Shown piece after piece: positions 3,666 through 30,904 of a DNA stretch of 37,324 nucleotides; the first letter of the stretch is position 1, and each line of letters opens with the position of its first letter. The position numbers and the translations under genes were made by a program. Below the pieces are notes generated by a model. The model ran no database searches and had not been told where the DNA came from. It saw nothing but the letters and a program-made list of their open reading frames with translations. The DNA comes from a virus, in the IMG/VR virus record IMGVR_UViG_3300020424_000009, positions 1-37,324 of that record; one strand, 5' to 3'.

Positions 3666-3873
3666 CTTCTACATCTCCAATAGAAATAGACCAACCATCT
3701 TCACCAAATTTACCTTTTTCAATGATTCTAGGTTTTGTCATTTTTGCATCCATATCATCATGATATTTTTTTATCTGATTATCTAATTCAAATTGTAATT
3801 TTTTTATTCTTATCCAGGACACAAGTTTATCAATATAATATTTAATTAATTTTTTAAAAAATCCAAAAATCAT
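3652..3873 (-). CDS. Small basic/amphipathic protein (73 aa)
   Basis: The amphipathic, aromatic and basic N-terminus (M-I-F-G-F-F-K-K-L-I-K-Y-Y-I-D-K-L-V-S-W) would bind a membrane surface. It is followed by a coiled-coil-like helix and an acidic glycine-rich tail ending E-D-G-D-S. No family recognised. Its 3' end overlaps the following proline-rich gene by 14 bases and its ATG shares a base with the upstream stop (TAATG), so it belongs to the same coupled group of small genes. Confidence 0.65.
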   Translation of the reverse strand: MIFGFFKKLIKYYIDKLVSWIRIKKLQFELDNQIKKYHDDMDAKMTKPRIIEKGKFGEDGWSISIGDVEDGDS

Positions 3874-24033: not shown

Positions 24034-24183
24034 TTACTTCCTTTTACGTTTCTTAGCTGTTTTCTTTTTGCCTGCTGTAGATAATGCAATGGCAATTGCC
24101 TGGGATCTTGATTTACCTTCTCTCATCAACATTCTGATATTGCCTGTTATTGTCTTTTGTGACTTTCCTTTTTTAATTGGCAT
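24034..24183 (-). CDS. Small basic protein with helical repeat (49 aa)
   Basis: M-P-I-K-K-G-K-S-Q-K-T-I-T-G-N-I-R-M-L-M-R-E-G-K-S-R-S-Q-A-I-A-I-A belongs to a family recurring in phages and bacteria (L-K-x-x-x-S-x-x-T-I-x-x-N-I...E-G...Q-A-x-A-I-A), small helical proteins of unknown function. A basic tail ends K-K-R-K-R-K. It overlaps the end of the MuF-like gene by 11 bases, placing it in the head operon. Confidence 0.75.
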   Translation of the reverse strand: MPIKKGKSQKTITGNIRMLMREGKSRSQAIAIALSTAGKKKTAKKRKRK

Positions 24184-25363
24184 CTTTGTATTTATCAGCT
24201 AGCTCCTTTAATGTTAGCTCTGTTCCATCCTCACGGATAATTTTTTTTAAGGCATTTGTAGCGTTTAGCTGTTTATTTCCTCTTTTAGGACTCATTAAAT
24301 AATTGAAATATCTTTTCTTTTTACCTAACACTTTGTCCTGTAAATCAGGGTTATCCTTTAACCATGTTGCGTAGTTTGTATTTTGAGGAACACGGCCTGT
24401 TGCACTTGGTCTTGTATTTGGGAAGGCTCTTGCCAAATCATCATCATCAATAACAGGAACAGTAGTTGATCTACAGTTAAAATGTTGTGGAGGAACAGGC
24501 CCTTGATCATATCTAAACAGTTGACCATCTAATCTTTGACATATAGAACTTGTCCTTGCATCAAGTGTTGCGACATATTGATATTTGCCTGTTATATCTT
24601 TGTTTGCTGCATATACCGCCTGACTTGCTGCATTTTGTACTTGGTTAACAGTTGTTCTTACAACAGTCTGGATTTGTTTGTTTGATAAAAGCATCCCCTC
24701 AGAATTTTTTAAGGCAGAGTTTAATGCAATTGCATTTTGTGGTTTAGCGTTGAATCTAAGGTTTGGCCCTTTAAGCCTTCTTACGATCTTTGGTAAAGAT
24801 TCACCTTCTAAAACACCAAGCCTTATTGCTCTTGACAATCTTGAAGCAGAATCTTCAGCAATACCTCTAAATGATTTTTTTACATTTTTGCCGTTTGGTA
24901 ACGATATTTCTGATCCTCTTTTTGCCGTCAATGCAAACTGAGCAGATCTAAACACACCGTCTTTGTCTCTTAATCGAATAGTTAAAGCAGTCGGATCTCT
25001 CGTGACAATAGATTTTGCAAAGTCAGGTGAGACTGCAACTGTGTTTACCTGGAACTCTCCTTTTGGTAAAACTCTTTGGAGTTGATCTTGAACAAAACCA
25101 ACTTGAAACTCTGCCAAGTTTTGAAGTTCATCAATCATATAAACTGCACTTTCATTTTCCCAACCTCTTAAACTATCAACCATCTGTGCCAATATTGATC
25201 GCAGTCTTGCAGTTGTAGTTGGACTGTTACCCTCAAGATCTCTTATCTTTCTAAGAACATCTAAAATTACCTCATTGAATTGACTAGCAATTTGAAACTG
25301 AACCTTATTGCTGTATCTGTTCAGATCAATCGCTTCACGATAGAAAGCTTCTGGAACTGCCAT
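24173..25363 (-). CDS. Head morphogenesis protein, MuF / SPP1 gp7-like (396 aa)
   Basis: Minor capsid protein associated with the portal. The C-terminal MuF domain carries the expected signature: V-A-T-L-D-A-R-T-S-S-I-C-Q-R-L-D-G-Q at about residues 265-283, then P-P-Q-H-F-N-C-R-S-T at about 291-300 (a Cys and His pair that can bind metal). The N-terminal 200 residues are helical with a portal-binding character. It starts four bases after the portal gene, the typical order. There is no fused toxin or enzyme domain at the C-terminus. Confidence 0.9.
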   Translation of the reverse strand: MAVPEAFYREAIDLNRYSNKVQFQIASQFNEVILDVLRKIRDLEGNSPTTTARLRSILAQMVDSLRGWENESAVYMIDELQNLAEFQVGFVQDQLQRVLPKGEFQVNTVAVSPDFAKSIVTRDPTALTIRLRDKDGVFRSAQFALTAKRGSEISLPNGKNVKKSFRGIAEDSASRLSRAIRLGVLEGESLPKIVRRLKGPNLRFNAKPQNAIALNSALKNSEGMLLSNKQIQTVVRTTVNQVQNAASQAVYAANKDITGKYQYVATLDARTSSICQRLDGQLFRYDQGPVPPQHFNCRSTTVPVIDDDDLARAFPNTRPSATGRVPQNTNYATWLKDNPDLQDKVLGKKKRYFNYLMSPKRGNKQLNATNALKKIIREDGTELTLKELADKYKDAN

Positions 25364-25366
25364 TTA

Positions 25367-26761
25367 CTATGATTCATCTGGTTCAGTTGGGGTTTCCATT
25401 TCAATCAATCCACCAGATTGTGTTGCCTCGACTTCTTCCTCTACGTCAAAATCATCACCAAGAATCTCACCACTGCTTAATTGTGTTAATAATGTTTCCT
25501 GGCTGATAGTGCCAGCAGTGAACAACGCAAGTAATGATTGAATTTCTTGTGGTTCTAATCTTGCCGTTACAAAGTCTCTATTAACAAAAGAACTGCCAGC
25601 ATTTGGTTCATTTAAATATTCACTATGAAACTTCAAGCAATTATCAATCAAGTCTTGCATCTGTTGAGCAATGACCATCATTGTGCTGTCGTTTTGAGAG
25701 CGGTCTATTCGCTTGGCCTCGGCTGACTCACCCACTAATTTTTGGCCAAGTACGGCTGCCAATGACAATGTATTTATTTGATCTGCAATGTCTTTGAGTC
25801 TTGTGAACTGACTGTCGTAACTGTCACCCGATGGGCTGACATATTCCATCCTTGATTCAGGTGGTAATGACAATGCTTCATTCGGGCCTGTTGTTATCTC
25901 ATCTGCATTTGGATATCCAAAGACTGCAAGTAATGGAACAGAACTGATATGTAAAATATTATCCAAGTCAGATTGTATCTGATAATGCTTGAGATTTAAT
26001 TCTGCAATGTCATACAAAGGACTGCGTGATTCATACATCCCTACTCTGTTTGAATATGCAACCGAAAAAGGAATCTTATCTTTTATACTCATCTCCCCTT
26101 CATCATGTAATTTATATTCACCCTTATTGTTTTTTCTATGGATTTCATATCGACCAGGCTCTAATACTCTGATTTGTTTTACAATCTTTTCTCCATATTT
26201 ACCATCATTTTCAACCACCTGTTCCATCAATCTCAACTGCGTTAATTTTCTAACACCGTCAATAATCTCTGTCCTCCAACCAAGAATATCTTTTGGCGCA
26301 TATGTTACCCAATATGGCCTTGCCTTTTCTCCATCTTTCGGCGCGTCAACAAGAACACCAACATGACCAAAAGAAATTGCAACCCTAGCTGTCTGATACA
26401 GCCAGACATTAAGATCATTACCTTCAAGGTCAACATCAAATAACTGCTCTCGTACCAAGTCAGATACATCATCAAGTCTGATAGGTTTTCTGACGAGCAT
26501 ACCGCTTAACATTTTCTCAATACGCTGCAAATATGGCACTACTGTTGACCTTGCAAGCCTTGTATCATAAGCGTCATCTGTTTCTCTTGGTTCTTGATTT
26601 AAATATTTTCTGTGTTCAGATCTAATTTTGTATGTTCCCTCTTTTAAGTCTTCAACCAAACCCCAGAAATTAGCCATCCTCTGATACGCAGCATTAGGAC
26701 TTGCAACCGTTGTAGGAGCTAGTGTTACAGGCTGATTGTAAATATTCAGAGAGCTATACAC
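25367..26761 (-). CDS. Portal protein, DUF4055-like (464 aa)
   Basis: Forms the DNA gateway at one vertex. Recognised by Y-L-N-Q-E-P-R-E-T-D-D-A-Y-D-T-R-L-A-R-S-T-V-V-P-Y near residues 50-75, with the D-x-Y-x-x-R-L and T-V-V-P-Y-L-Q-R elements of the DUF4055 portal family. The central part has H-Y-Q-I-Q-S-D-L-D-N-I-L-H-I-S-S-V-P-L-L and G-P-N-E-A-L-S-L-P. The C-terminus is acidic. It lies between large terminase and MuF-like genes, the usual place. Confidence 0.9.
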   Translation of the reverse strand: MYSSLNIYNQPVTLAPTTVASPNAAYQRMANFWGLVEDLKEGTYKIRSEHRKYLNQEPRETDDAYDTRLARSTVVPYLQRIEKMLSGMLVRKPIRLDDVSDLVREQLFDVDLEGNDLNVWLYQTARVAISFGHVGVLVDAPKDGEKARPYWVTYAPKDILGWRTEIIDGVRKLTQLRLMEQVVENDGKYGEKIVKQIRVLEPGRYEIHRKNNKGEYKLHDEGEMSIKDKIPFSVAYSNRVGMYESRSPLYDIAELNLKHYQIQSDLDNILHISSVPLLAVFGYPNADEITTGPNEALSLPPESRMEYVSPSGDSYDSQFTRLKDIADQINTLSLAAVLGQKLVGESAEAKRIDRSQNDSTMMVIAQQMQDLIDNCLKFHSEYLNEPNAGSSFVNRDFVTARLEPQEIQSLLALFTAGTISQETLLTQLSSGEILGDDFDVEEEVEATQSGGLIEMETPTEPDES

Positions 26762-26787: not shown

Positions 26788-28134
26788 TTAATATATTCTA
26801 ATCCCTGTTCGCTTGCCTGCCCTACCATAAAGCAAATTAAATTCACGATAAATTAAATACCCAAGAGCATCATTCATGTGATCATATCCATTCTGTTTAT
26901 CTGGATCTCCTGTCTTTTCATCGTAGCTCTGCAACTCAAGGCACGAAATCAAACGAGTGCAACTGGCATGAATCGCCAGACGTCTTTCCCCTTTGCCGTT
27001 CTGTAGTAACGCATTGACGGTTGCAACTCTATCTTTGATAAAGGGGTTGCTCTTGAGAGCCATTGAACCGAAGCCGTAACTTTGGAGGATGGCGAGATCT
27101 GTCTTTGATGCGTTAATCGTTGAACGTGCTGAACCACTAGCGTCAGGGTAAACTAATATTCTGTTTGAAGGATAACGTCTAAGTAACTCTTGTGCCAACG
27201 CATCTGTATCTTTTTGTTTGGATATTTCATCAATGATCACTAGCTTGTCACCATCTCTCACACCAATGACACAGTTGCAGTTCATCACATTGAAATCTAT
27301 ACCGCAAAGCAGAGTCTCCATTTTGATATCAAACGGTATCTTGTTGATGACATGATGCTCCCTGGAAAACCTGCTATAAACCTGACCACTTGTAAGGTTG
27401 ACCCACTGTCCTAGCAAATAAGCTTTGATCAACTGAGGTGGATAATTCTCATATAAAGACGGAATAAACGTATCTGGAAGATATGGATTATCAGCCGTCT
27501 TTGCCTGGATCAATGCAGTGTCAGATTTTCTATTTTTTTCAAAGGTTTCAAAAGCCCAGCCATGACCTTCGGGAGTTGTTGTTGCATAGAACTGTTGAAC
27601 ATTACCTGATCTAAGTCTTGCAAGTGCCATGTTCATAGCGTTTTCTGCTTCTCGTTTTGGGATGGTATCTGCCTCATCAAATCCAACTGCACAAAGGTTT
27701 TGGCCTCGCAATCTTTGATATGTAAGCATTGTCCTTAATAAGATAGTATGTGTTCCTTCTTCCCAGGAAAGTTGATACTCAGGAAGCGGTGATGCTCTGA
27801 ATGTGAAAGGTATTTGCCATTGATCTAATAATTCATTAAATGTACGAATTAAAATGTCTCTTAGCATCGGTGCTGTTGGTTGAAAAACAGCAGATACATG
27901 ACCAATATTCAGACAGGCAAGCATCACAGCTTTTGAACATAAAGCATAAGTTTTACCAGCACCAAAGCCACAGACAAGGGCTAGTTTTCTATGATCCATG
28001 TCTTGACAGAACTTTGCCTGATGCGGAAGTAAACCTTGATAAATTCTTTCTATCGTTTCTTGCGTTGTAGGAAGATTATATGCACCAATCTCATATAAAA
28101 CTTTTCCAGGTTGAACTGTATCTAAGATGCTCAC
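26788..28134 (-). CDS. terL: Terminase large subunit (448 aa)
   Basis: ATP-driven motor and nuclease for DNA packaging. Walker A GFGAGKT at residues 56-62, Walker B A-V-G-F-D-E-A-D with D153-E154, and the coupling motif T-T-T-P-E-G at 185-190. The C-terminal RNase H-like nuclease has the acidic triad D280 (C-G-I-D-F-N-V), D331 (Y-P-D-A-S-G) and D418/D422 (Y-D-H-M-N-D-A-L-G-Y). Length is typical. It overlaps the small subunit gene by four bases. Confidence 0.95.
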   Translation of the reverse strand: MSILDTVQPGKVLYEIGAYNLPTTQETIERIYQGLLPHQAKFCQDMDHRKLALVCGFGAGKTYALCSKAVMLACLNIGHVSAVFQPTAPMLRDILIRTFNELLDQWQIPFTFRASPLPEYQLSWEEGTHTILLRTMLTYQRLRGQNLCAVGFDEADTIPKREAENAMNMALARLRSGNVQQFYATTTPEGHGWAFETFEKNRKSDTALIQAKTADNPYLPDTFIPSLYENYPPQLIKAYLLGQWVNLTSGQVYSRFSREHHVINKIPFDIKMETLLCGIDFNVMNCNCVIGVRDGDKLVIIDEISKQKDTDALAQELLRRYPSNRILVYPDASGSARSTINASKTDLAILQSYGFGSMALKSNPFIKDRVATVNALLQNGKGERRLAIHASCTRLISCLELQSYDEKTGDPDKQNGYDHMNDALGYLIYREFNLLYGRAGKRTGIRIY

Positions 28135-28451
28135 GAAATAATCTGTGCAAGTCTGGCTGCTGTATTGATCGCACCAAGAGCAATATGCAAGTGACCTTTT
28201 TCTCTTGCTTCCATCTGTAGCGTTGCAGCCTGCGCTAAAAGATTCGCCACCATTTCAGGTCTTTCCATATCCCAATCTGCTTTCATTTCGGCTCTTGCAA
28301 TCTCTAAATATTTATCTGCTGTTTTAGAACTGACCCCCCAATTTTTGGAAGCATATGTAACGCAATCAGATCTACGGCCACCTTTAGCGATGATCTCGCC
28401 AAGTTTGCGTGACCTGATAACAGTTTCTATTTTTGTACCTTTTTTAGCCAT
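28131..28451 (-). CDS. terS: Terminase small subunit (106 aa)
   Basis: Recognises packaging sites for TerL, which it directly precedes. A basic N-terminus and a helix-turn-helix-like segment (V-T-Y-A-S-K-N-W-G-V-S-S-K-T-A-D-K-Y-L) occur before an oligomerisation helix. Short but within the family's range. Transcription could come from the primase region upstream or from the AT-rich region at 28560-28660. Confidence 0.8.
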   Translation of the reverse strand: MAKKGTKIETVIRSRKLGEIIAKGGRRSDCVTYASKNWGVSSKTADKYLEIARAEMKADWDMERPEMVANLLAQAATLQMEAREKGHLHIALGAINTAARLAQIIS

Positions 28452-28497
28452 TACTTAGATGTTACACGGAAAAGCGAGAATATGAATATTTATTAAT

Positions 28498-28800
28498 TTT
28501 GAGACTCATTTGAGACTGAGCAAGTGTTCCCACGTTCCCGATGTTCCCACCTTTGTACCAAACTTACCTCGCGTTATATTTATCCCCTTTATTCCATAAA
28601 TATACTAATAATATATTTATATATAATATATTAGGAACATAAGGAACATATATATAGATAGTAGTAGAGGAGAGAGTTTTGAGCGTTCCCGAAGGTAGGA
28701 ACAGGGTAGGAACAGTAAGGAACATCATGAAGATTTTTGAAACCAGACCCATTTCGGTGTTCCCATCACTCTTTTCTTTTTTCGATCATATTTGAGACTG
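28498..28800. repeat. Iteron-like repeat region with AT-rich core, putative replication origin
   Basis: Most of this stretch is the only long gap without a gene in the minus-strand unit. It contains TGTTCCCA at 28525-28532 and 28542-28549 with CGTTCCCG between (28533-28540), then an extremely AT-rich core (about 28565-28630), then AGGAACA (the opposite orientation) at 28633, 28642, 28697, 28708 and 28718, another CGTTCCCG at 28684, and TGTTCCCA again at 28758 inside the primase gene. TTTGAGACT occurs at 28498, 28509 and 28791. Inverted iterons flanking an easily melted core beside the primase gene suggest an origin; a packaging (pac/cos) site next to TerS is the alternative. Confidence 0.55.
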
Positions 28801-30758
28801 CGTAAGATTTGACTCACGGTCATCATGTCACTTTTTGTTTGTCTTTCGATAGGTTTTTCAATAGCATCTGTTAACAAAACTTCAATAGTAATATCTTTTA
28901 CAGAGTTTGATGGATCATTTAACCAATGACTGATAACAGATGACCAGGGAGAATCAACCATGTAAGATAAATTTTCTTTTTCAATCTGATGCTCCTCTTC
29001 ATATGAAAGAAAATGAGGTTCATTATTTTTGAAAGCATGAATAGCAGCCGACCAGAGAGCATCACGTTCAAGCTGAAGGGAATCAAGATCAATAGATTTT
29101 GCAGTGCAAGGAATAACATGAAATCGTCTGTTTCCAGTGTCATCTATCAATAAACCTGATTCTTTGTTACTACTTCCAACTATTATTCCTCTTCTTGGCC
29201 ATTCTTCTACGGCTTTACCGTAAGGAACACGCAAGAGATCGGTTGATCTTGATAAAAATGCCTTTACCACGCCTGCGTGTTTTCTTGATGTGATGCCATC
29301 AATTTCAGACCATTCCATCCCCCATGAACGATGTAGGACAAGAAGATCATCTTTTGAAGAAATATCACCAAGAGCATCTGAGAAGAAGGGGCCGAACAGT
29401 GTTTGCCAGAATGATGATTTTTTTATGCCTTGTGAACCCTGCAAGACGGTGGCGGTGTCATGTTTACAACCAGGCATATAAACTCTTCTTACTGCGTTTA
29501 TAAGTGTGAGTTTTAGCATGGTGTCATAAATTGTAGGTTCGGTAAGGTTTTGATCTTGTGGCCTTAAATATGTTGATGCCAAAGATTCAATGTAAGCTGG
29601 TTGGATTTCGTTATAACAATGATCAAGATAAAGTTTTACAGGATCATATTCATTTTCATGAGCCACTTTGAGGAGACAATCAACTGCCATTTCTTTTGGC
29701 ACTTTATAACCAAGTTCTGCGAGAGTAAGATAAAAAATTTCAATATTTTTTATTACTTTGCCATCCATTTCTATTGAATGAGAAAAGGTATTAAATCTAA
29801 TTTCCTGTTTAAGATTGCGTAAAAAATTTATAAGCTCCTGGGATGTAAGTTGTTCTAATTTACGAGGAACAGGAGTTGATTCTTCTTTTGGTTCTATTGA
29901 TGTAGGAAAAATGCGTGGTGGTGGAGTCCAACCATCTTCGGAGGCAAACTTCTGGAGAGTACCAAGAGAAACCCCTGATGACTTAAATGATGACCATTTC
30001 TTTTCACATTCTCCTGATTTATATTTGCTGTTCTTTTGTGATAACTGTTCCCAATCGAAAAGGAGAGAATCATCGCCAACTGAATGAGCAGCCATACCAA
30101 TTTTAACCCACATATCATAATCATCCAAACGGTTTGGATTTATTGATTGAAGAAGAGAACGTGCTTTGTCTGTATCTGAATTAAGAGTTTGTATCTGTGG
30201 TGTTTTTTTCTTTTTCGGCTCCATCATCTTTTTTATTATTTCAAGAGGAGCTTCTGCTATTTCAAGATCAGAGGGTGAACGACCATCCATCCACCTGTAG
30301 CCGTCAGTTTTTGGATGTTTACCAGATACTATGGATTGCGTACCATTCCAGCGCAGTTCTATCTGTTCAACAGAACCATCCTCATCTTTTACACCTGTCT
30401 GAAATTTTCGTGTCTTTATTTTTGACCAATACTTTTCTGGAACTTGGTAAATTATTTGAAATCTACCAACCCGACCTGATGTAACCATCCATGATGGTGG
30501 CAATGAGGAAAGAGAAAAACCCCACTCACCTAATATCTTCCCTGCTGATGGCCCATCATGATCGAGAAAAAGTAAACCACCTGAAGGAACACCACAGCAA
30601 ACACCAATACCTGTTGATCTGTTGGAGGAAATTTCTTTAAATAACTGTGAACGTGTGAGAGGATTATTTTGCCAATCATTTTGATATGGCCTTTTATTTT
30701 GAACGGCAACAAAACCCCAGTGCTTTGGCAAGCGGAATAATTCTTCTTTTGTATCCAT
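28725..30758 (-). CDS. Primase-helicase: Prim-Pol, PriCT and VapE/D5-like helicase (677 aa)
   Basis: Main replication protein. The N-terminal domain resembles archaeo-eukaryotic type primase-polymerase (about residues 10-180; G-F-V-A-V, I-G-V-C-C-G, L-F-L-D-H-D-G at 63-69 with the metal-binding D66/D68, and a later V-S-G-K-H-P box). A PriCT-like helical linker follows at about 195-285 (D-D-Y-D-M-W-V-K-I-G-M-A). The C-terminal helicase has GSQGIKKS at 441-448 (Walker A), a W-S-E-I-D acidic motif, and R-R-F-H-V-I-P as arginine finger region, as in VapE/VirE-type helicases. Origin-like repeats follow its 3' end. Confidence 0.9.
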   Translation of the reverse strand: MDTKEELFRLPKHWGFVAVQNKRPYQNDWQNNPLTRSQLFKEISSNRSTGIGVCCGVPSGGLLFLDHDGPSAGKILGEWGFSLSSLPPSWMVTSGRVGRFQIIYQVPEKYWSKIKTRKFQTGVKDEDGSVEQIELRWNGTQSIVSGKHPKTDGYRWMDGRSPSDLEIAEAPLEIIKKMMEPKKKKTPQIQTLNSDTDKARSLLQSINPNRLDDYDMWVKIGMAAHSVGDDSLLFDWEQLSQKNSKYKSGECEKKWSSFKSSGVSLGTLQKFASEDGWTPPPRIFPTSIEPKEESTPVPRKLEQLTSQELINFLRNLKQEIRFNTFSHSIEMDGKVIKNIEIFYLTLAELGYKVPKEMAVDCLLKVAHENEYDPVKLYLDHCYNEIQPAYIESLASTYLRPQDQNLTEPTIYDTMLKLTLINAVRRVYMPGCKHDTATVLQGSQGIKKSSFWQTLFGPFFSDALGDISSKDDLLVLHRSWGMEWSEIDGITSRKHAGVVKAFLSRSTDLLRVPYGKAVEEWPRRGIIVGSSNKESGLLIDDTGNRRFHVIPCTAKSIDLDSLQLERDALWSAAIHAFKNNEPHFLSYEEEHQIEKENLSYMVDSPWSSVISHWLNDPSNSVKDITIEVLLTDAIEKPIERQTKSDMMTVSQILRSLKYDRKKKRVMGTPKWVWFQKSS

Positions 30759-30760
30759 TG

Positions 30761-30904
30761 TTATGCAGCCTGCTCCATTTTTTCGGCAACTATTAATCTG
30801 AGTAAACAGGATCTTGATTCAGAACCTTTATTATCATCAAGCCATTTTATCTGACCCTGGGAAAGTTGAATATTGATTGTTTTTAAAATTTGTTCTTGTT
30901 CCAT
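30761..30904 (-). CDS. Ribbon-helix-helix-like DNA-binding protein (47 aa)
   Basis: T-I-N-I-Q-L-S forms the beta ribbon, followed by two helices (Q-G-Q-I-K-W-L-D and S-R-S-C-L-L-R-L-I-V-A-E-K-M) in the order of the CopG/Arc fold. The stop is two bases before the primase ATG, so it is first in that operon. It is divergent from the helicase gene and a palindrome occupies the gap, so it is a good candidate for an autoregulating repressor of the early switch. The fold is inferred from pattern only. Confidence 0.7.
   Translation of the reverse strand: MEQEQILKTINIQLSQGQIKWLDDNKGSESRSCLLRLIVAEKMEQAA

Follow-up and report, generated by a model that had tools for sequence, protein, structure and literature searches.

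The 37,324-nucleotide stretch of viral DNA analysed here (IMG/VR record IMGVR_UViG_3300020424_000009, positions 1 to 37,324; hereafter the window) contains a gap at 28452–28724, which parts a TerS-like gene (28131–28451, minus strand; named by its position; PHROG 34910) from the gene of a 677-residue primase-helicase (28725–30758, minus strand). Short repeats in this gap form two oppositely oriented arrays flanking an AT-rich core, and the region at 28525–28724, perhaps reaching to 28764, is very probably a phage replication origin of the type known from phage-inducible chromosomal islands (PICIs), which would be bound by the adjoining primase-helicase via a C-terminal winged-helix domain. The TerS-like gene is a neighbour of this putative origin and lies outside it, while the repeat block is found directly 3' of the proposed initiator gene, starting at the primase stop codon (28725), a position following the primase that it also has in relatives.

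The repeat unit, or iteron, is approximately 10 bp long and reads about TGTTCC[CT]ACC (TGTTCCYACC type), so that the GGAACA repeat named in the initial annotation is present but is part of a longer unit. On the TerS side, three plus-strand copies, TGTTCCC (28525–28531, conserved in relatives), CGTTCCC (28533–28539) and TGTTCCC (28542–28548), carry GTTCCC cores at 28526, 28534 and 28543, with the spacing of 8 and 9 bases that had been described. The primase side holds five minus-strand copies of TGTTCCT, and the AGGAACA copies reported there were all confirmed: a core-proximal pair at 28633–28639 and 28642–28648 (spacing 9) and a distal array at 28697–28703, 28708–28714 and 28718–28724 (spacing 11 and 10). 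The earlier inventory was accurate in the copies that it listed, but overlooked an opposed GTTCCC at 28685–28690, which together with the copy at 28697 makes up an inverted pair with a fixed 6-nt loop (28685–28702), kept in relatives. The AT-rich core between the arrays, the proposed melting site, spans 28577–28632 with a GC content of 12.5%; its earlier description as nearly pure A/T holds for 28594–28632 (3 G/C in 39), and the 60-mers starting at 28574–28597 are among the lowest in GC of the window, behind only one near 3823. Finally, an iteron-like TGTTCCC (28758–28764, plus strand) lies within the primase codons for GTP and is conserved, with 68 of 74 relatives showing a matching GGAACA in the final 60 nt of that gene; coding may keep it. 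The single GTTCCC (28759) of this copy and a single TTTGAGACT (28791) had been correctly placed inside the end of the primase gene.

The arrangement was compared with dinucleotide-preserving shuffles using an inverted-array score computed over all 6-mers. The score of 6 obtained for 28452–28764 was matched by none of 15,000 shuffles, for which the largest score was 5, and the top-scoring 400-bp windows of the whole 37 kb all fall at the repeat block. Elsewhere, the gene at 24173–25363 contains three minus-strand TGTTCCT copies within 112 bases (24386–24497), possibly owing to chance or coding.

Comparison with related genomes, as proposed in the initial annotation, was done with close relatives from IMG/VR having 85–99% primase identity, and the repeat block proved to be retained in most of them. 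All six pairs of the inverted pair at 28685/28697, with its 6-nt loop (G-U allowed), are kept in 71 of 78 relatives, and in one clade the primase-side repeats have changed from TGTTCC to GTTCTC. In a clade in which TerS is still 87–92% identical but the primase only about 61%, the block differs: its repeats read GTACCTA and GGAACA, and its AT core is not that of the window. Among 74 distinct relatives, the similarity of the block was associated with that of the primase once TerS was controlled for (partial Mantel r 0.39, P 0.004), but not with that of TerS when the primase was controlled for (r 0.01, P 0.34).

These values bear directly on the packaging site (pac or cos) that had been raised as another possibility, at which TerS would bind the repeats and packaging would start. 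TerS proteins often bind repeats near their own gene, and the block is indeed located just upstream of the TerS-like gene and TerL. A pac or cos site would, however, be expected to co-evolve with TerS, and the block instead tracks the primase. Moreover, 0.6–1.2 kb of inserted genes part the block from TerS in many relatives, comparable blocks follow the primase where the next long open reading frame is not terminase-like, and in a cultured relative, Synechococcus phage S-LBS1, the termini predicted by PhageTerm at 25,643 (PMC6157547) are about 8.6 kb away from the corresponding block (34.2–34.6 kb). A packaging function is therefore improbable. An operator or promoter region of the late operon (TerS-TerL-portal), with the repeats as sites of a regulator, has a similarly slim chance of being the explanation: this leftward operon does follow the block, and an AT-rich core can house a promoter, but no sigma-70-like promoter or terminator was found in 28300–28900, and the block is independent of TerS and covaries with the replication protein.

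The relation between primase and repeats extends to distant lineages, which were added by scans with the L119 and S-LBS1 primases, bringing the set to 40 clusters at 85% identity. Most of these roughly 40 primase lineages (48–99% identical) have a comparable block 3' of the gene, each with a repeat sequence of its own. An exact 6-mer inverted array with a score of at least 4, within a 400-bp stretch spanning the primase stop and continuing past it, was present in 25 of the 38 lineages with enough sequence, compared to 2 of 31 upstream of the gene, 7 of 38 inside it and 7 of 35 farther downstream. The array sequences are lineage-specific, as exemplified by TGTTCCTACC, CTGCCCTACC, CTTGCCAACC, TGTCCCAACC, CGTCCTAACC and GTACCCCACC, while sharing a ...CC[ACT]ACC-like part, and they are usually pyrimidine-rich on the primase side. 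The shared ACC ending is partly built into the consensus, because that step sought sites ending in ACC, though this type of ending also appears in a separate 9-mer search that did not impose it. The next long open reading frame after the primase is terminase-like in only a few distant lineages, and bacterial and archaeal genomes searched with a nine-primase alignment yielded no relative with the patterns used. In S-LBS1-like lineages (L149, L150, L167 and L171), the first opposed repeat pair lies just past the primase stop, with one more repeat and a T run after it, for which reason it might additionally act as a transcription terminator.

The proposed initiator combines Prim-Pol (PF09250, E 1e-15), PriCT_2 (PF08707, E 8e-20) and VapE-like (PF05272, E 2.4e-60) domains. 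Its only sequence relative in the PDB is 7pds (E 1.6e-28), entitled 'The structure of PriRep1 with dsDNA', which is also its best fold match (E 6e-10); the prim-pol of phage NrS-1 is likewise among the fold matches. As in PICIs, the initiator is homologous to the Rep/Pri-Rep helicases of the Staphylococcus aureus pathogenicity island (SaPI) type and is predicted to have a C-terminal DNA-binding domain. In the AlphaFold model, residues 604–674 (codons at 28737–28949, minus strand) follow a helix-helix-helix-strand-strand (H-H-H-E-E) order, the pattern of a winged helix, in which helix 642–654 is likely the recognition helix. Confidence in the full model is low in the helicase core, where the score pLDDT stays below 50 over residues 491–545. 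A Foldseek search with the isolated C-terminal domain gave nothing below E 0.001 and listed several winged-helix DNA-binding proteins together with unrelated enzymes, and thus favours the winged-helix assignment only weakly.

That this domain would be the reader of the iterons is suggested by covariation. Repeat-consensus distances were compared with domain distances across 38 lineages, five lineages with a poorly readable consensus being excluded. Repeat distance correlated with the C-terminal domain (residues 603–671) at r 0.45 (P 0.0005; partial Mantel 0.47), compared to r 0.12 for the helicase, 0.09 for the middle region and 0.06 for the prim-pol region (P 0.15), and the partial correlations of these three regions ranged from −0.11 to 0.00. 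When single columns were compared, residues 603–675, which make up 53 of the 418 tested columns, accounted for 30 of the 50 strongest residue/repeat-position pairs. The same comparison speaks to a further explanation, namely that the repeats serve the prim-pol as template positions at which primers are begun, rather than the C-terminal domain as binding sites. A staphylococcal primase does prime efficiently at its own origin iterons (PMC7581432), and the fold match to the NrS-1 prim-pol points in the same direction, but it is the winged helix, not the prim-pol region, with which the repeats covary. Priming alone is thus a poor candidate for what the repeats do, though they may serve in priming besides being bound by the winged helix. 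A bolder proposal, about which we are slightly more doubtful than confident, is that the winged helix and the iteron, with its variable 5' part and conserved ...CC[ACT]ACC part, constitute a readable recognition code, whereby the origins and replicon specificity of uncultured phages could be predicted from protein sequence and the origin and winged helix would be exchanged as a unit.

Some observations weigh against the assignment of the block as an origin read by the winged helix. About a third of the distant lineages fail the exact-6-mer test, although several pass with one mismatch. Cumulative GC skew, also put forward initially as a check, is compatible with an origin but not discriminating: the block is not singled out, because the minimum is flat across 28.6–30.85 kb (−893 at 28,600; −898 at 29,323; −890 at 30,850), and gene direction confounds the measure. 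Furthermore, the C-terminal domain adjoins the block, so that some of the covariation could stem from the two recombining together, and the strongest pair, involving residue 668, is near enough to the gene end for an overlap effect. The rise in correlation starts at residues 601–630, which lie upstream of the gene segment overlapped by repeats in some lineages, and functional matching would be a simpler cause than shared recombination for the joint exchange of repeats and C-terminal domain.

Between the block and TerS lies a direct TTTGAGACT pair with an 11-bp period (28498–28517, plus strand), of which at least one exact copy occurs in 56 of 74 relatives. As a component of the origin, TTTGAGACT was rejected: where another primase and block have taken over, the pair beside TerS is still found at its position and so does not belong to the block, and of 74 relatives only 15 keep the copy that lies in the primase gene. 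The pair is instead a conserved boundary element outside the origin block, marking the limit both of primase and origin exchange and of gene insertion. In many relatives, the inserted genes mentioned above, several of them methylase-like, sit between the TTTGAGACT pair and TerS, and the block therefore stays with the primase. This site is a cargo hot spot in many relatives, and differing methylase-like genes of 0.6–1.2 kb were observed at this one spot (L012, L015, L019, L051, L073, L077 and L104). The exchange of primase and block as a unit, with genes inserted alongside, could also be taken to mean that the repeats are a recombination junction, marking a module boundary without origin function. 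This is very hard to credit, since the role of boundary falls to the TTTGAGACT pair, which lies beyond the block, and since lineage-specific repeats kept in a constant layout around the core imply selection for binding.

Genes for TerL and for portal, major head, tape measure and tail proteins mark the window as DNA of a tailed phage. Its TerL is best matched (51–53%) by Prochlorococcus phages MED4-184, P-HS2 and MED4-117 and Synechococcus phages KBS-S-2A and S-H1, and the nearest match of its primase is S-LBS1 (54%); because both proteins are closest to those of cyanophages, the host is likely cyanobacterial. SaPI origins immediately follow rep, and it is the C-terminal domain of Rep that recognises them (PMC7581432), PICI origins are likewise found directly 3' of the initiator gene (PMC6092414), and a 2018 paper described such an origin organisation as exclusive to PICIs. 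The window resembles these systems (PMC6092414, PMC7581432; PDB 7pds) in its homologous VapE-like helicase, with the SaPI Rep C-terminal domain reading iterons as predicted here, but differs in the sequence of its iterons (TGTTCCYACC family) and in having its own terminase, portal, capsid and tail genes. PICIs are helper-dependent satellites without a full structural gene set, and the window is thus a phage with a PICI-like origin and not a PICI. Judged from its sequence, the putative origin is of a kind already described, now seen in complete tailed phages.

The closest parallel in place, initiator family (48–54% identical) and layout is the block 3' of the S-LBS1 prim-pol (MG271909), where the repeat is CTGCCTAACC compared to TGTTCCYACC in the window; the main text of the S-LBS1 paper makes no mention of repeats or iterons (PMC6157547). 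The final ~115 bases of the S-LBS1 GenBank record (L140:22427-22544) duplicate part of the repeat block in that genome, which suggests an assembly break within the putative origin. A literature search combining cyanophage, origin of replication and iterons found nothing relevant. The Cch2 helicase of the staphylococcal cassette chromosome mec (SCCmec), with a putative origin, binds direct repeats downstream of its own gene via its C-terminal domain, as is proposed here, but belongs to another helicase subgroup and has three iterons (AAGTG) in one direct-repeat array (PMC7581432). In a small scan of named phages, inverted short repeats were found directly 3' of VapE-type genes in APSE-1 (the clearest array), tp310-2, Lena, YeP5, SMP, IME1320_01 and the satellite Javan257, and no such array in Haddon, HNL35 or LNTR3. 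The proteins are distant and the repeats unrelated or loosely similar to those of the window, the comparison being based on the scan only. PICI-origin-like inverted arrays thus also occur in unrelated named VapE phages (L235:3341-3660; also L230, L237, L238, L240 and L241). Iteron plasmid origins of the RepA/pi type are alike in having repeated initiator sites beside an AT-rich unwinding element. Their initiator is not a primase-helicase and their iterons are tandem in one orientation, whereas the initiator neighbouring the block is a prim-pol/VapE protein.

Taken together, the iteron origin beside the primase-helicase that the initial annotation put forward is strongly supported by the conservation of the block and its linkage to the primase and not TerS, by the covariation with the C-terminal domain, and by the structural homology to PriRep1. 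In the mechanism that we infer, the primase-helicase would bind the two facing iteron arrays via its C-terminal winged helix, and two helicase hexamers would probably assemble on them. The AT-rich core between the arrays would then melt and the helicases would load and move outward, while the prim-pol domain of the same protein would make the primers for initiation at the block.

The block is accordingly a very probable replication origin for an abundant marine phage group, whose terminase is closest to those of Prochlorococcus and Synechococcus phages. An origin layout described as exclusive to phage satellites would thus also occur in complete tailed phages, and the repeats with their reading domains, matched in nature across the lineages, are a collection on which origin recognition by a self-loading primase-helicase could readily be tested.
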